In this document: in pieces, positions 35,220 through 47,985 of the stretch | How positions within the stretch are numbered: the first letter of the stretch is position 1 | Layout of the letters: each line of letters begins with the position of its first letter | DNA from: Thermoflexus sp. | GTDB lineage: Bacteria; Chloroflexota; Anaerolineae; Aggregatilineales; Aggregatilineaceae | Reading direction: 5' to 3' | DNA: 64,000 bases | NCBI GenBank assembly: GCA_020724465.1 | Contig: DYGX01000007.1 | Span: forward strand, 1-64,000 | Notes under the pieces: generated by a model | Databases searched by the model: none | What the model was told of the DNA's origin: nothing | What the model saw: only the letters and a program-made list of their open reading frames with translations | Made by a program: the position numbers and the translations under genes

Positions 35220-35565
35220 CAGCGCTCCCCTCAGGCTCGGTCCCAAAACTGATCTGCACACCAATCGTCCGCCGCAGCAGCCGCGCGATCCGCGCTCTGC
35301 GCGTCACCGCTACCTCACCCGCCAGCGCCCCCGGAATCGCCAGATAGAGCACGGTCTCAGACGCTTCCAGCCGGCGCAGCAGGCCGGGACTGAGCGCCGC
35401 CAACAGACCGTCCTCGATGGCGACCAGGGCGGCTTCGCGCTCGTCCAGCCACGTCTCAAGCAGCGTCTCCGCCGCCTCGACGTCCTGGACCCCGTGCGCT
35501 TCGACTCCGGCCAGATGAAAGCCTGTCACGACGTCTGGGCTGGCGATCACCCGCAGACGGCTCAT
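35209..35565 (-). CDS. atpF: V/A-type ATPase subunit F
   Basis: The 118-residue protein fits subunit F of the central stalk in size, position and fold: a short alpha/beta protein beginning RLRVIASPDVVTGFHLAGVEAH. Sequence conservation in this family is low, so the operon position between C and A is the main evidence. The ATG at 35565 overlaps the stop of subunit C (ATGA). Confidence 0.85.
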
Positions 35566-36638
35566 GCGACCCACTCCACTTCGGCCAGGATCGCGTCCGC
35601 GGCCAGCCGGGCGCGCACGCCGCGCGCGATCCAGCGCAGGTTGCCGATCTCGTTCACCTTCAGCGCGAGATAGCCCAGCGGCACCCCGGTGCCCAGCGGA
35701 TCGCGGGCGATCAGACCGGCGCGCCAGCGCAGCCGCCAGCGTTTCAGGCTGCGCTCGACATCGCTCAGCCGTCCGGAGCGCCGCGCCGCCTCGACCCCGG
35801 CGCGCAGCGGGACGGCGTAAATCGACTGGCGCAGCACGTCCGCCACGCCCGCGAGAGCCGGCTCCGCGACCGCGCTTTCCAGCAGCGCGAACGGCAGCCG
35901 CCCCGGCCCGACGAACAGCGCGCGCCAGCCGCCCGGCTCGATCCGCCGCTGGAGCGCGGCCCGCTCGCCGGGCGCGTGGACGAGACGCAGCACGGTGAGC
36001 AGGTTGGTAAGGTCAGCGTCCACGGCCAGCGCCTCGCGCAGCGACGCGGCTTCGCCGCGCCCCGCCTGCGCTTGCTGCATGGCCGTCTCGAAATACCAGC
36101 GCTCCAGCGCCAGCTCGAGGTCCGACAGGATAGCGTCGGTCCGGCCCGCCTGCGCCGCCGTCAGCGCCGCGGCCTGTGGCAGCCGCAGCGTGGCGATCCG
36201 GTCGATGGCAGCGCGTAGCGACGGCATCTGCACCAGATCGTCCAGCAGCGCTTCCGTCAGATCGCCGATGGGCAGCAGCAATGCGCGGATCTCGTCAGGC
36301 GCCGCGCCGCGCTCCACCCCGCGCAGAATAGTTTTGAGGTTGTGCACATCATAGCTGCGCAGGATGATGGCGAGCATGTGCTGAGCAGGCGGCTCGTAAA
36401 AGGCGCGGATGCGGCGGGCGGTGGCGATCAAATCCTGGCTGAGCGCGTAGCTGATGGCTTCCGGCTCGCCCACCCGCACCAGCGCCGCTTCGACCGCCCG
36501 CCGGTACGCGGTCCGCGTCAGTGCGCCGATCAGATCGTCCAGGCTTTCCGACCGGGCCAAAACGCGGTAATCGGCCTCGGAAAGCAAGCGCGATTTCATT
36601 GCCCGCAGGCGCGCGTTTCCGTACTCGTAGCCGCTCAT
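35562..36638 (-). CDS. atpC: V/A-type ATPase subunit C
   Basis: The 358-residue all-helical protein starts YEYGNARLRAMKSRLLSEADYRVLA, typical of the d/C subunit that links the membrane ring to the central stalk. It contains the YDVHNLKTILRG motif conserved in the family. The ATG overlaps the stop of subunit E (ATGA). Confidence 0.9.
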   Translation of the reverse strand: MSGYEYGNARLRAMKSRLLSEADYRVLARSESLDDLIGALTRTAYRRAVEAALVRVGEPEAISYALSQDLIATARRIRAFYEPPAQHMLAIILRSYDVHNLKTILRGVERGAAPDEIRALLLPIGDLTEALLDDLVQMPSLRAAIDRIATLRLPQAAALTAAQAGRTDAILSDLELALERWYFETAMQQAQAGRGEAASLREALAVDADLTNLLTVLRLVHAPGERAALQRRIEPGGWRALFVGPGRLPFALLESAVAEPALAGVADVLRQSIYAVPLRAGVEAARRSGRLSDVERSLKRWRLRWRAGLIARDPLGTGVPLGYLALKVNEIGNLRWIARGVRARLAADAILAEVEWVA

Positions 36639-37294
36639 GGTTCTACCGGAGCCGTATCCCCTGGCACACTGCCCCCCGCGAGCGGCTCGCCTCGCGGGAT
36701 CGCTTCGAGCCGGGCGAGCATCCTCTGGCGCAAATACGGGGCCGCGCAGGCCAGCCGGCTTTCCAGGGTGTTATCGGCCACGATGGCCCCGTCTGCGCTG
36801 GTCGCCGTCACGCCACCCCACGTCTCGATCTCGTAGCTCACCGACCACGCGGCGCCGCGCTCGCGGCGGATCGCTTCCAGCCATCCCCGGTCGCGCGGAT
36901 CGGCCAGCAGGCGCGGCTCTTCGCCCTCGGCCAGCGACGGCAGCACCGCCGCCAGCGCCTCGTCGACCAGCGCCGCCAGCAGCGCGGGATAATCTCCCCG
37001 GCTGCGTGCGCAGGCCAGCCGCTCGCGCAGCCGATCCAGCACACCCGCGATGACCGCTTCCTGGCCGTCGTACACGATGCGCATGGCCTCCAGCCGGGCG
37101 CGGTGCAGCGTGCGCGCCCGCTCCCAGGCTGTCGCCTGGAGCGCGACAGCGTGCGCCCGATGGTAGATCGCCTCGGCTTCCGCTTCAGCACCGGCCAGGA
37201 TGCGCGCCGCCTCGGCCTCGCTCGCCGCCTGGATCTGGGCGGCGCGCGCCTGACCTGCGTCGCGAATCGCGCTCAGAATACCCTCCAGGCTCAT
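36635..37294 (-). CDS. atpE: V/A-type ATPase peripheral-stalk subunit E
   Basis: The 219-residue protein has a long, Ala/Glu-rich N-terminal coiled coil (to about residue 80) and a mixed C-terminal domain, as in V-type subunit E. Start 37294 gives the classical MSLEGILSAIRDAG N-terminus; an extended reading region upstream overlaps the proteolipid gene and has no similarity. It pairs with the G/H-like coiled coil encoded at the start of the operon to form the stator. Confidence 0.88.
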   Translation of the reverse strand: MSLEGILSAIRDAGQARAAQIQAASEAEAARILAGAEAEAEAIYHRAHAVALQATAWERARTLHRARLEAMRIVYDGQEAVIAGVLDRLRERLACARSRGDYPALLAALVDEALAAVLPSLAEGEEPRLLADPRDRGWLEAIRRERGAAWSVSYEIETWGGVTATSADGAIVADNTLESRLACAAPYLRQRMLARLEAIPRGEPLAGGSVPGDTAPVEP

Positions 37295-37299
37295 CAGGA

Positions 37300-37518
37300 T
37301 CAGCCCAACAGCAGAATCATCGCCGCCGTTGCGAACCCGAGAATCACAACCGTCTCCGGAATCGCGATCAAGAGGATGATCGCACCCAGCAGATCGGGTT
37401 TTTCGGCCAGAGCACCGGCGCCCGCCGCGCCAATGCGAGACTGCGCCAGCCCGGTTCCCAACGCGGCGAGTCCGATCGCCAGTCCGGCCCCAATCGCCAT
37501 CAGCCCGGTTTCCATCAT
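37300..37518 (-). CDS. atpK: V/A-type ATPase proteolipid (c/K) subunit
   Basis: The 72-residue protein is a two-helix hairpin with a polar loop AEKPDL at 38-43 and the ion-carrying Glu55 in IPETVVILGF. This is the short, unduplicated ring subunit. Gln26 is in the first helix, but I cannot decide from sequence alone whether the ring carries H+ or Na+. AAGGAGG stands before the paired ATGATG start, which overlaps the stop of subunit I. Confidence 0.93.
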   Translation of the reverse strand: MMETGLMAIGAGLAIGLAALGTGLAQSRIGAAGAGALAEKPDLLGAIILLIAIPETVVILGFATAAMILLLG

Positions 37519-39437
37519 GACGCCTCCTTACCCTGTTCGTGAACGTGCGGCAGCCGGAACGCCAGCGGCTGGTACGGCCGACCACCACCTTCGTAGAAGT
37601 TGCGGAAGAATTCAACGTAGTGCAGGCGCAAGCTCTGAATCGTCGGGCTGAACGCGCCCAGCACCAGGTTCAGCGCGTGCAGCAGCGCCGCGATGATCAC
37701 GCCGACGACCACACTGCCCACGGTGCCCGCGATCTCCCCGGCCACCAGCGCCAGATAGACTGACGACAGCCCAATCGCCGCGATACGGAGATAGGACAGC
37801 ACGTTGCCCACCAGCCCGATCATCTCAATCGGCGCCATTAACACGCCGATGCGCCCCAACGACGCGCCAAGCAGCACGGTCCCGATCACCAGCAGCGCCG
37901 CCGCCGGGGTGATCAGGCCATCCGGCAGCACTTCGACCAGCGCGCCGACTAGCAGAAAGAGCGCGATCAGCCCCAACAGGCGCCCGCCGCGCTCAAGGAG
38001 ATGGTGGCGGCTGCGCTGCCTGGCGCCTTCCCACAGCCCCAGAAGCAGCCCAAGCACCAGATGCATGCCCCCCACGCCGACCGACAGAGCGAGCAGGTCG
38101 AGCAGGTGATCTTCGCTCGCGCGGTCGAACAGAATGGCGTGCAGTCCGAAGGATTCCCCCAGCCTGCCGAAGAACTCGCCGAACAGCACGCCGAAGACAA
38201 TCGCCCATCCCGCGCCGTACGCCAGGACCGTCGTCAGGCTGTGCATCATCCCCGGCTTCAGGCGGCGGCGTACCAGAAACACCAGACCCAGCAACAGCGC
38301 CCCATAGCCGATATCGCCCAGCATCATCCCGAAAAAGATCGGCATGAACAGCGCCATCAGCCGCGATGGATCGAGCACATCGTAGCCGGGCAGACCGTAG
38401 AGCCGGACCAGCGCCTCGAAGGGACGAACCGGCGCAGGATTCGCCAGCAGGACCGGCGCGTGCCTGCGTTCCTCGGGCGTAACCGGCAACCGGATGATCT
38501 CGACGGCGTCACCCGCTCGCTCGTAAAGCGCGCGCTGCACCCGTTCAACTTCATCTTCAGGGGTCCAGCCCAGCAGCACGAAGGTCATGCCCGTCTCGCC
38601 CGCCGAGGCGATGACCTCGTAGGCGTCCAGCTCGTCTTGCAACCGGTCGCTCCACAGCAGCAGCCTGTCTTCCCAGCGCTGGGCCAGCGCCGCGAGGTCC
38701 TGCTCCACCTGGGCCAGACGCCCCGGCAGGGCGTTCAACTGCCGGCGCAATGCGGCGATCGCCGCATCCGGCGAGTCGGTGCTAAACTCGCGCGGGAGCC
38801 GCAGGCGCGAGACATCCTCGCGATCCAGCAGCGCATTGACCGGGTCGGCATAGGCGCGCGGAACCACGATCAGCATCGCGCAGAGTGCCTCGCCGACCGC
38901 AGCCGTCGCTGTTTCGGCGCGACCCTGCGTGATCCGGCCCACCTCGGACGCGATTAGAGTCAGCACGTCAGCGTGGCTGCGGCTGACGAGCAGCCCGAAC
39001 GACACGCTGTCGGGCTGGCGCGCCATGGGCGGAAAAACCGGCAGAAGCTGGCGCATGGTATCCTCAAAACGCGCCAGCAGCTCGCGTTCGGCGCGCAGGG
39101 CGTCCTGCTGGGCCTTCAGCACCCGAACCTGGGGAACCAGCTCCGCGATCCGGGCATAGATCACGTCCAGCGGTTCGACCGTCATCCCGGCAGGCGGGGC
39201 AGCCCGCCGCGCGATACCCAGCATATCGAGCAGCCCCTTGACCTGGGCGAAATGGCGGCTGATCTCTTCCTGCGCGCGGATCAGCGCGGCATCCACGCTC
39301 AGCGGTTGCAGCAGCAGTTCCGGCGCGTCGGCGGCGCGGTCGAGATGGACACATCCCAGCTCGCCCAGCGCCCGGATGACCGGCAACAGCGCCGGCTTGA
39401 GGCCGATGATCTGCACGCGCGCCATCTCACGGCTCAT
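37515..39437 (-). CDS. atpI: V/A-type ATPase subunit I (a)
   Basis: The 640-residue protein has a large cytoplasmic N-terminal half with coiled coils and a C-terminal half with about seven to eight membrane helices. It contains the MPIFFGMMLGDIGYG segment and the SYLRIAAIGLSSVYLALV helix whose Arg faces the ring glutamate. It forms the ion path at the ring interface. ATG 39437 is chosen; MARVQII at 39425 is an alternative. The N-terminus overlaps the coiled-coil gene by 11 bp. Confidence 0.93.
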   Translation of the reverse strand: MSREMARVQIIGLKPALLPVIRALGELGCVHLDRAADAPELLLQPLSVDAALIRAQEEISRHFAQVKGLLDMLGIARRAAPPAGMTVEPLDVIYARIAELVPQVRVLKAQQDALRAERELLARFEDTMRQLLPVFPPMARQPDSVSFGLLVSRSHADVLTLIASEVGRITQGRAETATAAVGEALCAMLIVVPRAYADPVNALLDREDVSRLRLPREFSTDSPDAAIAALRRQLNALPGRLAQVEQDLAALAQRWEDRLLLWSDRLQDELDAYEVIASAGETGMTFVLLGWTPEDEVERVQRALYERAGDAVEIIRLPVTPEERRHAPVLLANPAPVRPFEALVRLYGLPGYDVLDPSRLMALFMPIFFGMMLGDIGYGALLLGLVFLVRRRLKPGMMHSLTTVLAYGAGWAIVFGVLFGEFFGRLGESFGLHAILFDRASEDHLLDLLALSVGVGGMHLVLGLLLGLWEGARQRSRHHLLERGGRLLGLIALFLLVGALVEVLPDGLITPAAALLVIGTVLLGASLGRIGVLMAPIEMIGLVGNVLSYLRIAAIGLSSVYLALVAGEIAGTVGSVVVGVIIAALLHALNLVLGAFSPTIQSLRLHYVEFFRNFYEGGGRPYQPLAFRLPHVHEQGKEAS

Positions 39438-39783
39438 GAGCGCCCCCTTCCGGCGGCGGGGCGAGGACATAGCGCAGCGCGTCGTCGAGCATGTCCTGCG
39501 CGGACTGCTCCCATACCGGTCGCATCCGGGCGGTCAGTTCGCGCGCCCGCGCCACGATCTGCTGTGCCTCGGCCTCAGCATCGGCCAGCCGGGCTTGCGC
39601 CTCGGCGTCCCCATCCCGCCGCCCTCGCTCTGCCGCCTCGGCGCGGATCTGCTCGGCTCGCAAGCGCGCCTGGGCCACGCGCTGCGCGGCAGCCTCTTCC
39701 GCCGCACGGATCAACTCGGCCATCTCGCGCTCGGCACGGCGCACCTGCTCCAGCGCCGCCACACGCTCCGCTCTACCCTGCAC
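39427..39783 (-). CDS. V/A-type ATPase peripheral-stalk coiled coil (G/H-like)
   Basis: The 118-residue product is an almost continuous Ala/Glu/Arg-rich coiled coil from residue 5 to 95, as expected for the G/H partner of subunit E. It is the first clear ATPase gene, as in the Thermus-type order G-I-L-E-C-F-A-B-D. GTG 39783 follows GAGAGGA; a longer upstream frame has no coiled coil and is doubtful. Confidence 0.75.
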   Translation of the reverse strand: MQGRAERVAALEQVRRAEREMAELIRAAEEAAAQRVAQARLRAEQIRAEAAERGRRDGDAEAQARLADAEAEAQQIVARARELTARMRPVWEQSAQDMLDDALRYVLAPPPEGGAHEP

Positions 39784-40432: not shown

Positions 40433-41368
40433 ATGCGCAAACTAAAGTGGCCACCCTGGCTGAAACTGCTGATGTGTGCCGCCATAGTCCTGGGTACGGC
40501 GCTGGCAGTTAACGCCGGCAGACCGGCTCAGGCTCAAGGGCCGGACGACATGCGGCCCATTACGGACTTCCCCGAAGTCATGGAAGCCTGGGCAGGCAGT
40601 CCGCACGGCAACACCTACGACCTGGGCAAGGGACCAAACACGTACTGCTCGCGCTGCCATTCGCCCCAAAACTGGGACCCGGCCGCGCGGCCCGGCCCGC
40701 CGCCCAACTGCGTCACCTGCAAGTTCCCGCAGGACCCTGAGCTGCGCATCGCCCCAACAATGGACTTCGTGGAAGAGGACGACTGGGTGGGCATCACCTG
40801 CTCGACCTGCCATGTGGTCGAGGGCGAGCTGATCGACACGACGTCGAACGCCTGGCTCAACCCGATCGCCATGGAATACGAGCCGGTCGCGCGGGCTAAC
40901 GACCTGTGCGGCAAGTGCCATACCAACTCGACCGGCGTGTCCGAGACCGGCGGGCGCGGCGTGAATCACGAGATCGTCCTGGGCGGCAGCGCTCACCGCA
41001 ACTGGGCCGCGACTATCGGTGTCCGTCGCCCTGACACCTGCACCGACTGCCACGACCCGCACACCCAGCAGCCGATGGGCTGCGTGGACTGCCACAGCGA
41101 TGTGCTCGACCTGGAGCCGCACGTCATTCACGGCCAGGCTGTGAGTTGCATCGCCTGCCACGACGCTTCGGGCGCAGATGTCGGTCCGCATCCGGACACC
41201 GGCATCTGGACCACCATCCTGACCGAAATGAGCCGGTCCGGCGAAATGACAACAACCGCGATCGTCTCGCACAGCGTCCAGTGGCTCGTCAACTGCGACA
41301 GATGCCACTTCGAGGGCAACCCGGCCGGCCTGACGGTGCGCGACGCGTCTGGCAACCCGGTCGAATAG
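40433..41368 (+). CDS. Secreted eight-haem c-type cytochrome with one CxxCK site
   Basis: The 311-residue protein has a signal peptide (cleavage near PAQAQ, residue 35) and eight haem motifs: CSRCH 72, CVTCK 93, CSTCH 123, CGKCH 159, CTDCH 203, CVDCH 217, CIACH 239 and CDRCH 288. Seven are CxxCH; the second ends in Lys. A Lys-ligated haem marks the active site of nitrite reductase NrfA and related octahaem enzymes, but this protein is shorter than characterised octahaem reductases (about 450-550 residues), and I do not recognise it as any of them. It acts outside the membrane. ATG 40433 follows GAGGAG. It is the first gene of a three-gene plus-strand group under the TTGAC-N4-GTCAA site. Confidence 0.88.
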   Translation: MRKLKWPPWLKLLMCAAIVLGTALAVNAGRPAQAQGPDDMRPITDFPEVMEAWAGSPHGNTYDLGKGPNTYCSRCHSPQNWDPAARPGPPPNCVTCKFPQDPELRIAPTMDFVEEDDWVGITCSTCHVVEGELIDTTSNAWLNPIAMEYEPVARANDLCGKCHTNSTGVSETGGRGVNHEIVLGGSAHRNWAATIGVRRPDTCTDCHDPHTQQPMGCVDCHSDVLDLEPHVIHGQAVSCIACHDASGADVGPHPDTGIWTTILTEMSRSGEMTTTAIVSHSVQWLVNCDRCHFEGNPAGLTVRDASGNPVE

Positions 41369-41438
41369 GCGGGCGCGCCGTGCTCACGACACGGTCTACC
41401 GCGCACGCTGCGCGCCAGACACAACGATGAACCTGGCG

Positions 41439-41468
41439 GTATGGTGAGAGTCGTCCCTCTCACCATAC
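41439..41468 (+). terminator. Perfect hairpin between the two octahaem cytochrome genes
   Basis: GTATGGTGAGAG (41439-41450) and CTCTCACCATAC (41457-41468) form a perfect 12-bp stem with a six-base loop. The flank TGTTCC is only weakly T-rich. It may be a partial terminator, a processing site or a stabilising stem that sets different levels of the two cytochromes. Confidence 0.6.
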
Positions 41469-41533
41469 TGTTCCAGACGGTTTGAGCAGTCCGGAAAAGT
41501 TCTGTTTCAGGCGAGCTAGATACAGAGAAACCA

Positions 41534-42451
41534 ATGAACCAGACTGAGCGCCAATCCACGGCAGCGGACCGCCTCGGCCCGATCCGCGATGCCGTGATCG
41601 CGATCGTCTTGATCGCACTGGGCTTCGCCATCGTCGCCCTCTACCAGATCGAGGCTGCCAACACCGAGCCGGTCAGCATCAGCCAGAATACCGGCGGCGC
41701 TGCGTCCCAACTGGTGCGCGGCGCGAGCGAGCAGGCGGACACAGAGGCAGCGCTCCCCGATACTCCGCTGGATAAGTGGCTGGCCGGGCCGCACGCTGAT
41801 ACATACGTGGTCGCCGACGACGGAACAAACAGCACCTGCAATCGGTGCCACGACCCGATCAACTATGTGCCTTCGATGGCCGACATGCCCGCAAGCTGCA
41901 CCGTCTGCAAGTTCGAGGTCAAGCCCCCGCCGCCGTTGATCGAGCAGGCCAACGCGCACTCGGTCGACTGCAAAGTCTGTCATCGCGTCGATCGCAGCGG
42001 GACTGTGCTGGCCGACGTGGTGTGGCTGGAAGTGGCGGCCATCGAGCAGTACGCCGACGTGTCGTCGGTTAACCAGCTATGCCAGTACTGCCATGCTGGC
42101 GCTGGGGTCCAGGGACACGCCGACATCCAGCTTGGCGGCGCGCACGCAGACCTGACCTGCACCGACTGTCACGACGCGCATATGATGACCGCCTCGTGCG
42201 GCGCGTCCGGCTGCCACGAGACGCTTGGCGAGACACCCGGCCACGACGCCGATCATGCCGGTGTCCACTGCGTCGCCTGTCACGACGCCAGCGGGATGGA
42301 CGTGGGACCGGATGAGTCGCGCGGGGGGCAGTGGGTGACCTTCGCCAGGGGCGATGCTGAAGACCCGTTCCCGCACCTGTCGCACATGCTGGCGCGCGAG
42401 GTGGCCTGCGACCGCTGCCATGTCGAAGGTCTTCCGGAGACAGACGAGTGA
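41534..42451 (+). CDS. Membrane-anchored eight-haem c-type cytochrome with one CxxCK site
   Basis: The 305-residue protein has an uncleaved N-terminal anchor helix (about 19-38) and eight haem motifs: CNRCH 102, CTVCK 122, CKVCH 146, CQYCH 183, CTDCH 209, CGASGCH 222 (a Cx4CH), CVACH 246 and CDRCH 292. The order, the Lys in motif 2 and the spacing parallel the preceding protein, and both share CHDASG.DVGP after haem 7 and CDRCH.EG at the C-terminus, so the two are paralogues. As the anchored partner it could pass electrons from the membrane to the soluble one. A weak AGAGAAA precedes the ATG. Confidence 0.85.
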   Translation: MNQTERQSTAADRLGPIRDAVIAIVLIALGFAIVALYQIEAANTEPVSISQNTGGAASQLVRGASEQADTEAALPDTPLDKWLAGPHADTYVVADDGTNSTCNRCHDPINYVPSMADMPASCTVCKFEVKPPPPLIEQANAHSVDCKVCHRVDRSGTVLADVVWLEVAAIEQYADVSSVNQLCQYCHAGAGVQGHADIQLGGAHADLTCTDCHDAHMMTASCGASGCHETLGETPGHDADHAGVHCVACHDASGMDVGPDESRGGQWVTFARGDAEDPFPHLSHMLAREVACDRCHVEGLPETDE

Positions 42452-42503
42452 GCAGGCAATCCCTCGCGTTTTTTGAAGCTGAAGAGTGTTGGAGCAGCGT
42501 CTC

Positions 42504-43193
42504 ATGAGTGTTAAATCAGCCCGCATCCTGTGGATCGTTGCCGTGGTGGCGATGGGCATGACGGCCGCGATGAACCTGTTCGGCGGCATCGGCACGGTCT
42601 GCGCGGCGTTCCTGACGGAGAACTTCCCGCCGATGCTCGTCCTGCTGGACTATCAGTGGCTCTACCAGCGCATGATGCTGATCACCATCGCGATCGGCAT
42701 CGCCGGTGTGTCGGCAACCTTCGCGCTGTTCCGGGGCGGGACCAACGCCTACCGTAACGCCGTGCTGGTTCTGATCGCCGGCGCGGTGCTGGGCGAGCTG
42801 CACGCCCGCGCCTCGCTGGAGCTGCGCGGCAAGATGGTCCCGGCCAACGTCAAGTTCTATCTGAACCTCTTTACGCTGATTCTGTTCCTGATCCTGGGCC
42901 TGCCGACGATCCGTCGCAAAATCGCGTTCTCGCAGCCGCGCGGCCGGGCCGAAGTCACCGCCGCCGGTGGAATGGCCGCTCTGATCGTCGGCCTGATGAT
43001 GCTGACCCTGCCGCTGTGGGTCGGGGATTCGCACACGCACGCGGGCACCGACTGGACCGACGTGCTCCAGCCGGGTCTGAGTCTGGTCGGGCTGGCGTTT
43101 GCGGCGGGCGGACTGGGCGTGTTCTTCAAGGCGGCGCTGACCGTGCTGCGCCGGCCGGACCCGGCTGCCACGCGCCAGCCGGCAGCGTCTTGA
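42504..43193 (+). CDS. Uncharacterised membrane protein of the haem module
   Basis: The 229-residue protein has about six hydrophobic segments (roughly 8-30, 45-70, 84-100, 118-135, 152-170 and 190-208), with one His in a loop (LGELHARASLE) and a His pair (DSHTHAGTD) between the last segments. No family is recognised. GGAGC precedes the ATG at 42504. It is 52 bp after the anchored cytochrome and the last gene before a strong convergent hairpin, so it is probably the membrane partner of the cytochromes. Confidence 0.75.
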   Translation: MSVKSARILWIVAVVAMGMTAAMNLFGGIGTVCAAFLTENFPPMLVLLDYQWLYQRMMLITIAIGIAGVSATFALFRGGTNAYRNAVLVLIAGAVLGELHARASLELRGKMVPANVKFYLNLFTLILFLILGLPTIRRKIAFSQPRGRAEVTAAGGMAALIVGLMMLTLPLWVGDSHTHAGTDWTDVLQPGLSLVGLAFAAGGLGVFFKAALTVLRRPDPAATRQPAAS

Positions 43194-43283: not shown

Positions 43284-44192
43284 TCAGGCGCCGAGGATGA
43301 TCAGGAGCATCGCCGTCAGCATATAGATCGACGCGAACTTGAAGATGCCGAAATTCAGCCGAGGCGAAGGGTACACCACACTCAGCGCGGTCAGCCCGGC
43401 CAGCGCCAACCCCAGACTGACGGTCGCGTACATGCAGTGCGCCTTTAGCTCGATGAGCCAGGCGGCGCACGCCATCGTCAGCACGGCCAGGATGGTTGAG
43501 ACGCTGATGATCAGCCGCGTGACGCGCTCCCCGTAGCGATTGGCGAAGGTGGGAACTCCCGCCCGCCGGTAGTCGGCAGCGTGCTTGATGCCATAGGTCA
43601 TGATGTGCGTGGGGATCCACAGCAGAACGGCCAGTGCCATCAGCAGGCCGATGTGCTCAATCTGGCCGGTGCCCAGCGTGCGCCCGGCCAGAATCGGCAT
43701 GCCGCCCGCGATCCCTCCCCAGATGATCGACCACGGCGTGCGCCGCTTGAGCCAGATGGTGTAGACCATGACGTCAAACGTCAGGCCGGCGCCCACCACC
43801 AGCCCGTACCAGGGCGCCAGCACCAACGCGCCGCCCACACCCAGCACGGACAGAGTCAGCCCGACCACCAGGGCTTCCCCAGGGGCAATGGCGCCTGAGG
43901 GCAGCGGGCGGCGCGCAGTGCGCTCCATCCGCGCGTCGATATCCCGGTCGTACACCATGTTCAGCACGGTGCTGCCGCTGATCGCCAGAAAGAGCGTGAC
44001 CAGCATCCCGATCAGAGTCGACCAGCGCTGCACCGGGCAGCACACACTGGCGAAGCCAGCCAGCCCGGTGATCAGCAGCAGCCCGGTCTGCAGGCTCTTG
44101 ATGAGCTGCCAGTAAAGCCGCAGCTTGATCCAAACCCTGGCTGGCGAGCTGTTCACATCGAGCTGCTCCACAACCACGCGTGTCCCTTGCAT
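43284..44192 (-). CDS. ctaB: Protohaem IX farnesyltransferase-like protein (CtaB family)
   Basis: The 302-residue UbiA-superfamily membrane prenyltransferase has the first Asp-rich motif NMVYDRDIDARMERTARRPLP (starting about residue 88) and the second region HAADYRRAGVPTFANRYG, both typical of haem O synthase. Eight to nine membrane helices are predicted. It would attach farnesyl to haem B to make haem O. No CtaA or cytochrome oxidase gene is present; the partner at 45116 may use haem O. The start codon directly abuts the stop of the SUMF1-like gene. Confidence 0.85.
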   Translation of the reverse strand: MQGTRVVVEQLDVNSSPARVWIKLRLYWQLIKSLQTGLLLITGLAGFASVCCPVQRWSTLIGMLVTLFLAISGSTVLNMVYDRDIDARMERTARRPLPSGAIAPGEALVVGLTLSVLGVGGALVLAPWYGLVVGAGLTFDVMVYTIWLKRRTPWSIIWGGIAGGMPILAGRTLGTGQIEHIGLLMALAVLLWIPTHIMTYGIKHAADYRRAGVPTFANRYGERVTRLIISVSTILAVLTMACAAWLIELKAHCMYATVSLGLALAGLTALSVVYPSPRLNFGIFKFASIYMLTAMLLIILGA

Positions 44193-45119
44193 TTAGTCAC
44201 CTGGCGCGGCGTCACGCGCGCAGCGGAAGCCGACGTTGGGGCTGGCATACTGTGGCGCGGCGTTGTTGCTGGCCCACACGCGCAGATAATGCTCGTATTC
44301 CGCCCGGCTGCCGCCACGCATATAGCGGTAGTGCTGCTTGTCTTTCACGTCGCCGGTCCATTCCCAGACGTTGCCGGCCATGTCGTACACGCCGTAGGGG
44401 CTGGGCGAATCCAGCGTCTCGTAGCCCTCGTAAGTTTTGCCGTTATAGAACCCGACCGGCGTCGTGTCGCCGTATTTGCCAAATATCTTTTCGAACAGAT
44501 CGCGGCTGCTGTAGTAGTTCGCGTTGTTGCGCGCGAGTTCGTAGCCCCACGGGAAGGGACGGCCATCGGTGCCGCGCGCCGCCTTCTCCCACTCGACCTC
44601 GGACGGCAGGCGCCAGCCGTAGTATTCGCAATATGCCCGCGCCCCGAACCACGTCACGTACACCGCCGGGTGATTGTGATAGCCCTCTTTGACGGTGAAT
44701 GTCTCGCCGTCGAAGCTCAGCCGCGTGCCGTCTTCATCCAGCGGGAACAGCGGCCAGTCGCCGGCGTCGATGCGCTCCTCGTGCCGGTAGCCATGGAACT
44801 CGTCGCCCGGGTAGTAGCCGACCAGGTCGGTGCCGTCCTCGCTGATGCGGATCGTGCCGTCGGACAGCGCCGCGTTGAGGAAATCCGCGAACTGCGCGTT
44901 GGTCACGTTGGTCACCATGATCTCGTAGTCATAGTCAACCGCCGTCACGTGCTCGTGCTGGCCCATCAAGAACTCGCCCGCGGGAACCAGTGCCCAGGCG
45001 TCCGGGTCAATGCCCGTCTCGACGACCAGCAACTCCGCCGCCTCTTGGCCGGAACAGGACGCCAGCAGCACCGCCGCCAGTGCCATCAGCAGCCCGATCA
45101 GGAAGCGTTTCGCCTTCAT
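44193..45119 (-). CDS. SUMF1/FGE-fold lipoprotein
   Basis: The 308-residue protein starts with a lipoprotein signal (LLASC; lipid Cys near residue 22). A formylglycine-generating-enzyme-like domain follows (ALVPAGEFLMGQ, WRLPSEVEWEKAARGTDGRPFPWG, GVYDMAGNVWEWTGD, RGGSR, SPNVGFRCARD). The paired cysteines that follow RGGS in true FGE are absent, so it is probably a binding or assembly factor, not a sulfatase activator. NirV proteins beside nitrite reductases share this fold, an interesting parallel. Its ATG overlaps the stop of the upstream membrane protein (ATGA). Confidence 0.85.
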   Translation of the reverse strand: MKAKRFLIGLLMALAAVLLASCSGQEAAELLVVETGIDPDAWALVPAGEFLMGQHEHVTAVDYDYEIMVTNVTNAQFADFLNAALSDGTIRISEDGTDLVGYYPGDEFHGYRHEERIDAGDWPLFPLDEDGTRLSFDGETFTVKEGYHNHPAVYVTWFGARAYCEYYGWRLPSEVEWEKAARGTDGRPFPWGYELARNNANYYSSRDLFEKIFGKYGDTTPVGFYNGKTYEGYETLDSPSPYGVYDMAGNVWEWTGDVKDKQHYRYMRGGSRAEYEHYLRVWASNNAAPQYASPNVGFRCARDAAPGD

Positions 45120-46636
45120 TTCGACATCTCCTGCGCGGACGTCAAGACCTCGCCAACTTCGACGCGTTGGGCATCCAATCCCGCCTCGCGATATTCCCGG
45201 CGCCACAGCCCGTCGCCATCAAACAGATCTACCAGCCGCCAGATCATCAGCCCGGCCAGCGCCAGCAGCACCACTACGATCCCTGCGTCAGCCAGCAGCA
45301 TCGTCCAGTCCACAACCGGCTGCTGGTTGGCTTCCGAGACGAACAACCGCTTCATCTCGAAAACCGTCACCGCACCAAAGGCCAAGTCCGAGCCGAGAAT
45401 GACCGCCCACCCGAACCACTGCCGCACCCGCCCGCGCAGGTCGATCATATCGGCGTAGTAGAGCAAGATGATGGTGGCGATGATGCCGGACAGGATGTGC
45501 CAGTGACCGGTCAGGATCAGGCGTTCGTCACGCAGCGGCCAGACTCGGAAGATCTCGGTCAGCTTGACCGCGACGAAGATGCCGACGAAGCTGACGGTGA
45601 AGTTCATGAAGACCATCTGCCACAGCGCGCCAAAGCGCAGCGGGTCGTGCAGCAGAGCACGCAGCCCCTGCCCAAAGCTCGCCCGTTCGATGCCCCGTTC
45701 TGCCAGGCGATCCCGGATAATCTTGCGGAAACCGAAAATCACCAGAAACAGCGCCGCCGTCAGAACGAACACCGACCCCACGTAAATGATGGTGTGCGCC
45801 GAGCCGCCGTGCATGGGCACCACCGACCACGTCCCGATCGTCATGACGATGGTGCCGAGGATCATCAGCGGCATAGAGATCTTGTGGAGAATGCCTCTAA
45901 AGCGGAACCAGACGCCCACCACCAGCGCCAGCGCGATGGCGATCAGCGCCAGCATGATGTGCAGGTGCCCGATGATGGCGTACTGCAGAGTTGTTTTGTC
46001 GGGCGAGCGGATGATGTCCTCGGCCAGAAATGTTTCGTGGCCCTGGCCCCAGTAAGAGCCGGTGATCGCGCCGAGCACCGCCGACCCAAGCGCCGCGACG
46101 GCCATCGTGAAGAAGGCTGTCCGCTCCAGGTCGAGGCCGCGCAGATGCGCCCTCTCGGCGTCCTGGACGTAGTATTCCTTACGCCACGGGAACAGCGCCG
46201 CCGCCAGCAGCAGCCCGGCGAAAAACACCAGCGACAGCCCGAACAGATAGAGGCCGTGGAGCAGCCACTCGTGCCCAAAATAGGCGAAGCCGAGGCCGCA
46301 GAACATCGACACCAGGTAGCCCAGCGTCACGGTGGCGTTGATCGTCGTCTGCTGGTGTTTCTTCATCGGCACGACGTCCGTGATCAGGTAGACCATGATC
46401 GCCACGACCGCCATCGCGATGACGTGATAGAGGATGACGATGCGGCCTTCGCGCTCGGCGGGCTGAAGGTCGAACCCCAGCAAGCGGACGGTCACATCCC
46501 GCACGCCCCATTCCACCATCGGGCCGGAGAGCGTCCCCCAGATCGCGGTCACCAGCGCGATCAAGGCGATGGCAACCAGCACCAGCCCTTTGGTAGACTG
46601 AAAAAGATATCTGAACCGTGCCTGAATAGCCTGCAT
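45116..46636 (-). CDS. Polytopic membrane protein with paired HxH motifs, possibly haem-binding
   Basis: The 506-residue protein has 12-14 predicted membrane helices and many intramembrane or interfacial histidines: His71 (ILYHVIAM), His122 and His127, His224/His226 (IIGHLHIMLALI), His251, His276 and His281, and His378/His380 (LTGHWHILSGII). The two HxH helices and the regions after them resemble each other and, weakly, helix X of haem-copper oxidases (HFHYV). It lacks the HLW.E and HH motifs of NO reductase and the HPEVY and HH motifs of oxidases, so it is not an ordinary member of either. ATG 46636 with GGAG upstream is preferred; GTG 46657 is possible. It heads an operon with the SUMF1-like and CtaB-like genes. 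Confidence 0.7.
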   Translation of the reverse strand: MQAIQARFRYLFQSTKGLVLVAIALIALVTAIWGTLSGPMVEWGVRDVTVRLLGFDLQPAEREGRIVILYHVIAMAVVAIMVYLITDVVPMKKHQQTTINATVTLGYLVSMFCGLGFAYFGHEWLLHGLYLFGLSLVFFAGLLLAAALFPWRKEYYVQDAERAHLRGLDLERTAFFTMAVAALGSAVLGAITGSYWGQGHETFLAEDIIRSPDKTTLQYAIIGHLHIMLALIAIALALVVGVWFRFRGILHKISMPLMILGTIVMTIGTWSVVPMHGGSAHTIIYVGSVFVLTAALFLVIFGFRKIIRDRLAERGIERASFGQGLRALLHDPLRFGALWQMVFMNFTVSFVGIFVAVKLTEIFRVWPLRDERLILTGHWHILSGIIATIILLYYADMIDLRGRVRQWFGWAVILGSDLAFGAVTVFEMKRLFVSEANQQPVVDWTMLLADAGIVVVLLALAGLMIWRLVDLFDGDGLWRREYREAGLDAQRVEVGEVLTSAQEMSK

Positions 46637-46881: not shown

Positions 46882-47589
46882 TCAGCGACAGCCGCGCTCG
46901 GGCAGGCTATCGAGCTGGGCCAGTTCGGCCAGCCTGTCCGGATCGCAAATCACGATCGTCGTGCGCGAAGGGCAAACCACGCCTTCATCCCGCAGGTAGC
47001 GCAGCGCGCGGCTGACCGCTTCCGGGGCGGTCGAGATCTGCGCTGCCATCTTCTGAATGGGGTGGTCCTGCCGGGAGATCGGCAGGCGTCCCTGATCGCT
47101 CAGATCGAGCAGCAGCTTCGCCGTCCGCGCCCGCACCGATCGGAAGCAAATGTCGGTCACCATCGCGACCAGCACACGCGTCCGCTTCGCGACCACAGGC
47201 AGGAAGCCCAGCGCCACCTGCGGGTAACGCTCGGCCAACACCAGCAGAGCAGGGTAATCGGCGTGCCACACGCGGCTGGGTCGGGCGGCGATAACCGTCA
47301 TGGGGTTGGGGCCGCCGTCGAGGATCGCGATTTCGTTGAACATCGTCACCGGCGTCAGCTCATCGATCAGCACGGCCTGCCCGTCCGGACTCATCCGGTA
47401 CAGATGCACCATGCCCGACAGCAACACAAACATCCCCGCGCAGGGGGTGTCTTCGATGACGATCACCTCGCCTTCGGCGAACGAGCGAATATGCCCCGCG
47501 CGGATGATAGCCGTGATGTCCCCCGGCGAAAGTCCCTTGAAAAAGCGCAGACGGCTCATTCGCTCGGCAAGGTTAGCGATATTGACCAT
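46882..47589 (-). CDS. CRP/FNR-family transcriptional regulator
   Basis: The 235-residue protein has an N-terminal cyclic-nucleotide-binding-like beta roll (residues about 15-130) and a C-terminal winged helix. The recognition helix reads APEAVSRALRYLRDEG; the E..SR pattern is the one FNR uses to read TTGA half sites, matching the TTGAC-N4-GTCAA dyads nearby. FNR's cluster of N-terminal cysteines is missing, so it is more like DNR/NNR-type sensors that detect NO or another signal. AGAGGA precedes ATG 47589. The 396-bp region upstream (47590-47985) has a TTGACA at 47846 with no convincing -10 and nothing else I can support. Confidence 0.88.
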   Translation of the reverse strand: MVNIANLAERMSRLRFFKGLSPGDITAIIRAGHIRSFAEGEVIVIEDTPCAGMFVLLSGMVHLYRMSPDGQAVLIDELTPVTMFNEIAILDGGPNPMTVIAARPSRVWHADYPALLVLAERYPQVALGFLPVVAKRTRVLVAMVTDICFRSVRARTAKLLLDLSDQGRLPISRQDHPIQKMAAQISTAPEAVSRALRYLRDEGVVCPSRTTIVICDPDRLAELAQLDSLPERGCR

Positions 47590-47985
47590 GCCTGAATTCC
47601 TCTGCCGGCCGTGAGCACAACGTAACACGGGCGGCTGCACTCTCAGGATGCCGCTTGCCCGTCGCAGTATCCGGCCGGGCCGAGCGGCGACAAGCGTGTT
47701 TCTTAGCCGAACTCCGTACTGTCATCCTACCATGAAAGCTGCCTGCTAACAACCGGCAGGATAACGTTTTCCAGCGTGACGAAGATCAGTTCAGGCGGCT
47801 CGTCCCCGCGCTCGCCAGGGCGTACGGCAGGCCAAAGCCGCCGTATTGACAAGGCCGTGCGATCATTGTAGCCTTAATATGCTGCCTTATAGCTCGAATA
47901 AGACATATTTTCAGCCTCGCGCAACTCAAGCTCAGGTCGTGTGGCGGCGAACCGCGCTCGTAGCAATGTGTCGGAGGAGACATTT

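Follow-up and report, generated by a model that had tools for sequence, protein, structure and literature searches.

Paired octahaem cytochromes with an invariant CxxCK motif lie beside a predicted haem-copper-oxidase-fold protein in an Anaerolineae genome

Two neighbouring genes in the window, by which we mean the whole 64,000-nucleotide stretch analysed, encode OctA and OctB, octahaem c-type cytochromes that carry CxxCK as their second haem motif and belong to an uncharacterised family of the Anaerolineae. The motif occupies this position in every full-length relative of both paralogue types, in 28 of 28 sequences and then, after genomes were added, in 44 of 44. Because the lysine is invariant throughout, the pattern is far beyond chance, and the alignments mark the site as real and strongly constrained. 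OctA and OctB, each with one predicted Lys-ligated haem, are probably paired, extracytoplasmic, membrane-attached cytochromes that transfer electrons for an adjacent respiratory enzyme, a reading that we hold with modest confidence.

OctA (40433..41368, + strand) is a protein of 311 amino acids with an N-terminal signal peptide, in whose translation seven CxxCH motifs and one CxxCK were found (CSRCH72, CVTCK93, CSTCH123, CGKCH159, CTDCH203, CVDCH217, CIACH239 and CDRCH288). OctB (41534..42451, + strand; 305 amino acids) has an N-terminal membrane anchor and was assigned from its translation, its motifs (CNRCH102, CTVCK122, CKVCH146, CQYCH183, CTDCH209, CGASGCH222, CVACH246 and CDRCH292) and its paralogy to OctA. 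As judged by their alignment, the two are paralogues (33% identity over 253 residues, E 8e-33), and their CxxCK sites are superposed in it. The CxxCK codons are TGCGTCACCTGCAAG in OctA (C93-K97; 40709..40723, + strand) and TGCACCGTCTGCAAG in OctB (C122-K126; 41897..41911, + strand). A first-pass annotation of this DNA had placed CxxCK as the second haem motif of both paralogues, at residues 93 and 122 and within 40709-41914, which the codon coordinates confirm. It had also counted seven CxxCH-type motifs plus one CxxCK in each protein; the count is right for OctA, whereas OctB has six strict CxxCH motifs, the CxxCK and, at the sixth site, a Cx4CH (CGASGCH; 42197..42217, + strand) that is present in OctB orthologues too.

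OctA matches Pfam Cytochrome_C7 (4.4e-14). Against known families the two proteins give weak generic cytochrome matches only, so that the earlier idea of a new class stands in so far as it means an uncharacterised family; the DmsE decahaem model bears a weak resemblance to the octahaem protein (18.3 bits). Scanning a single genome for each species returned 48 loci, the close ones all from Chloroflexota (Anaerolineae/Anaerolineales), and the 44 family members recovered are likewise all from this phylum. The family is rare: a profile search of 396 sampled genomes of the class found it in 11, and a strict single-sequence search in 1 of 301 genomes across the phylum. A search for plasmid and viral relatives found none. 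Phylogenetically, 12 orthologues of OctA group in one clade and 12 of OctB in a second (100/99 in each case), and further relatives of the OctA and OctB types surround both; thus, the pair is old. The first paralogue of type 2 loci carries CxxCK twice, as motif 1 and as motif 2, and in most cases a ninth motif as well. Two adjacent CxxCK motifs were seen in the first paralogue at L076, L077, L078, L082, L084, L014/L085 and L015, and most of these loci adjoin DmsABC-type genes.

Haem is expected at all eight sites of OctA and OctB; each protein would hold seven His-type haems and, at CxxCK, one haem whose iron is ligated by the lysine. Among the His columns that lie outside the motifs, those at OctA positions 58, 188, 210 and 280 are 98-100% conserved, those at 179 and 233 reach 73% and 84% (with Met in the remainder of 233), and one near position 230 reaches 55%. 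The conserved non-motif His columns are at most seven, which equals the number of His-type haems and leaves the CxxCK haem without one. The distal side of the Lys haem may be open or weakly ligated, an open side being consistent with, though not proved by, this counting of columns. The AlphaFold2 model of OctA (44-row alignment, mean pLDDT 77) is poorest at residues 90-92, directly before the CxxCK, and at 165-178, and so cannot settle the ligand geometry.

Foldseek with the OctA model gave no significant match. A second structure aligner placed OTR (PDB 1SP3) at the top (Z 6.5, 218 residues, rmsd 5.1), followed by ONR, NrfA, HAO and MccA at Z 3.4-4.7, all of them weak matches by the threshold of Z < 8. 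Nearly all the proteins in the match list belong to one superfamily, and nearly all are enzymes. Comparison at the profile level, against 20 OTR sequences of the class, gave a probability of 97.5% with motifs 3-7 in register. The score of 94.6 exceeded those of all 40 column shuffles that preserved the motifs (mean 55.5, maximum 77.1); however, a nine-haem protein from the same genome, which is unrelated, scores 80.3 against the family, and we therefore claim no specific descent from OTR. In this profile alignment OctA motif 1, not the CxxCK, lies on OTR motif 2. Deleting motif 1 breaks the register, and removing the CxxCK stretch, which acts as an insertion, barely lowers the score, to 88.2. 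These excisions disfavour equating CxxCK with OTR haem 2, since motif 1 takes that place, but a weak NrfA profile match gives the other register, with the CxxCK of OctA on that of NrfA. OctA and OctB are probably related to the NrfA/OTR/HAO multihaem superfamily in its broad sense, and they qualify as members of no named family.

Membership of the OTR family (TIGR04315) was rejected, OctA scoring 12.2 bits against a curated cut-off of 375 and OctB giving no match. The lysine of the invariant VKHGDL of OTR, which, judging by residue numbering, is probably the haem ligand there, aligns with N, D, T or E in OctA-type proteins. OTR resembles OctA and OctB in having eight haem motifs and a Lys-type haem and is the best structural match; however, it has about 437 residues, all its motifs are CxxCH and its Lys ligand comes from elsewhere in the chain (PMC12285233). 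Both window proteins depart from the all-CxxCH pattern at motif 2 and lack the long stretch of OTR between motifs 7 and 8. Elsewhere the same genome does encode a genuine member of the OTR family (contig C37; L087, L088), an octahaem protein that scores 580 bits and has eight CxxCH. Its gene is followed by one for a 914-aa protein with seven CxxCH motifs and an apparent membrane cytochrome b part.

ONR (TvNiR) shares with OctA the content of seven CxxCH and one CxxCK and is a weak structural match (Z 4.7), but its CxxCK is haem 4, it has about 500-525 residues and it carries three extra haems at the N-terminus (PMC12285233). In the window proteins CxxCK is motif 2, not a haem 4 that follows an N-terminal trihaem part. 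NrfA also has a CxxCK, as OctA does, but differs in having five haems, the special one first, 440-480 residues and conserved active-site Arg, Tyr, His and Gln; in the 44-row alignment no Arg or Tyr column is conserved at 90% or above. Membership of NrfA (PF02335) was rejected because there is no Pfam match, the profile comparison is weak, the motifs number eight and the CxxCK is second. In 19 of 20 sampled Anaerolineae NrfA sequences (L111-L130), the motif of the active-site haem is CxxCH instead of CxxCK. OcwA, an NrfA-related nonahaem surface reductase of the Gram-positive Thermincola, has two special haems in one chain, a parallel to the possible case in the two-CxxCK paralogues; however, its open haems use CxxCH (PMC6703420), and it is absent from the matches in the present analysis.

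OctA and OctB are followed on the + strand by a polytopic membrane protein of unassigned family (42486..43193; no Pfam match), which is kept both beside the octahaem genes and in the core module without them. Four genes on the - strand come next: a UbiA-family prenyltransferase (43284..44192) whose closest family is haem O synthase (CyoE/CtaB; 198.5 bits against a cut-off of 210.3), an FGE-sulfatase/SUMF1-domain lipoprotein (44193..45119; PF03781, 2.6e-40; likely start at 45119, inside a longer ORF), a polytopic membrane protein with a predicted haem-copper oxidase (HCO) subunit I fold (45116..46636) and a Crp/FNR-family regulator (46882..47640; cNMP_binding and HTH_Crp_2). The prenyltransferase, lipoprotein and regulator genes are conserved in the cluster: the set of HCO-fold, UbiA, FGE, Crp and membrane-protein genes stands beside octahaem genes at 10 loci, namely the window and nine others (L001, L002/L075, L003, L007, L009, L012, L079, L083 and L086). 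Just upstream of OctA, on the opposite strand, lie V-type ATPase genes, including one for an NtpI-like subunit (35562-39470, - strand); V-type ATPase genes also adjoin an OctA relative in L013.

The 45116-46636 protein has no Pfam match and no PDB sequence match, and hhalign against COX1 (PF00115) gave 1.3%, that is, no sequence match. Its predicted model resembles CcoN along its length (Z 22.4, 398 residues) and shows the COX1 fold of about 12 helices. Across 24 members seven His residues do not vary, among them H71 (helix II) and H378-x-H380 (helix X), positions that hold haem ligands in the haem-copper oxidase superfamily. Helix VII lacks its usual His-His pair, a single H251 being present. 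This HCO-fold protein occurs in 64 of 396 genomes of the class, mostly with the FGE, UbiA and membrane proteins, and of 14 further loci read, 12 have the HCO-fold/FGE/UbiA core with no octahaem genes nearby. Thus, the octahaem cytochromes are an optional add-on to the core. A literature search turned up no paper on a new haem-copper family of Chloroflexi.

At seven other loci (L076, L077, L078, L080, L081, L082 and L084), as read from ORF lists, octahaem genes stand with genes for a molybdoenzyme and for an FeS protein or a DmsC-type anchor; Pfam confirmed this set at L084 and the molybdoenzyme only at L076. A gene for a CarboxypepD_reg secreted protein accompanies the octahaem and molybdoenzyme genes, and further multihaem genes lie nearby at three type 2 loci (L077, L080 and L084). 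Octahaem proteins in operons with DMSO-reductase subunits have been mentioned for Chloroflexi RBG-9 and share phylum and operon association with the type 2 loci, a likeness drawn from their description only (PMC3971608).

We favour an electron-transfer role because the partner changes from locus to locus and the partners probably have catalytic centres of their own. The optional presence of the octahaems beside the core fits an electron donor. OctA and OctB would act as electron-transfer subunits of the neighbouring enzyme, which here is the divergent membrane protein with a haem-copper-oxidase fold and in other genomes would be a DmsABC-type molybdoenzyme; electrons most likely flow from the octahaems to the membrane enzymes. 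Attachment features that count for this reading are the anchor of OctB, the signal peptide of OctA and a lipobox-like Cys in several orthologues. The invariant CxxCK, the ceiling of seven conserved non-motif His columns and the weak DmsE resemblance count for it as well. Mature protein mass per haem is 3.72 kDa (OctA) and 3.46 kDa (OctB), assuming that signal and anchor end near residues 35 and 42, respectively. Cytochromes with less than 5 kDa per haem have been described as electron-transfer proteins (PMC7096707), so that these values fit the peptide-minimised electron-transfer class; small size, taken in the first-pass annotation as a possible sign of a compact enzyme, is no pointer to one. 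The Lys haem may tune the potential or bind a small ligand.

Several points count against the electron-transfer reading. To our knowledge, every well-characterised CxxCK haem is catalytic, and the invariance of the lysine in both paralogues would seem to exceed the need of a plain electron-relay haem. The closest folds of the predicted model are almost all enzymes, and R268, an Arg conserved in 14 of 14 OctA-type proteins, could be part of a pocket. The lysine haem may have a catalytic role.

The proteins might be compact lysine-haem reductases, in which a five-coordinate catalytic CxxCK haem, fed by the seven others, would reduce a nitrogen or sulfur compound outside the membrane. We consider this possible but rather unlikely. 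It keeps this standing because the well-studied CxxCK haems, those of NrfA and octahaem nitrite reductase, are catalytic, a point of the earlier annotation that the literature bears out (PMC12285233, PMC8840924). The invariant CxxCK, the lack of a spare His column for its haem, the structural match list and the two adjacent CxxCK motifs of some first paralogues all agree with such an enzyme, and OcwA offers a precedent for two open haems in a multihaem reductase, there with CxxCH (PMC6703420). However, the catalytic Arg and Tyr of NrfA are not conserved, the mass of 3.5-3.7 kDa per haem is below the known range for catalytic multihaem proteins (PMC7096707), the site is retained in both paralogues and the partners probably have catalytic activity of their own. 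Of the proposed compact enzyme class, the conserved lysine-type site and the uncharacterised family thus survive, whereas the argument from size does not and the missing Arg and Tyr speak against it.

An unlikely alternative to electron transfer towards the neighbouring enzyme is that OctA and OctB form surface heads that pass electrons out of the cell, to minerals, humics or other cells, with the membrane partner oxidising quinol or another donor. Chloroflexota are thought to be largely single-membraned, and surface-anchored multihaem proteins with peptide-minimised haem chains would suit this role, as would the optional place of the octahaems beside the core and the additional multihaem genes near a few type 2 loci (L077, L080 and L084). 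OcwA is again a Gram-positive precedent (PMC6703420). However, the window has no further multihaem cytochrome gene beside the pair, and the presence of the Crp regulator and of a gene resembling haem O synthase suggests instead a respiratory enzyme that contains haem.

It is also improbable, though conceivable, that the cluster encodes a new respiratory complex in which an HCO-fold enzyme with a remodelled metal site joins two octahaems whose five-coordinate Lys haem turns over a nitrogen oxide; two kinds of catalytic site would then reside in one complex. The genome (contigs C44, C19 and C23) contains NirK, and its PF00115 matches are one aa3-type and one cbb3-type oxidase, with no NorB-like protein seen among them; NO reduction is therefore a candidate task. 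Very improbable is a CxxCK that binds no haem and is merely a Cys pair in proteins with seven haems: the stretch behaves as an insertion against the OTR profile and the genome, with one CcmF-type and one CcmC-type protein, has no clear NrfE paralogue although CxxCK often needs a dedicated lyase, but a disulfide does not require the exact C-x-x-C-K seen in 44 of 44 members, and haem attachment at CxxCK apparently proceeds in Shewanella without NrfEFG (PMC12285233).

Nearly all known CxxCK haems are catalytic sites. Paired, peptide-minimised octahaem cytochromes that never lose CxxCK while swapping partners would be either a Lys-haem electron-transfer family, as we favour, or unusually small octahaem reductases. 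The core of HCO-fold, FGE, UbiA and membrane proteins, carried by roughly one sampled genome in six of the class, suggests a respiratory module not yet described, and this neighbouring module may be more novel than the octahaem pair itself.
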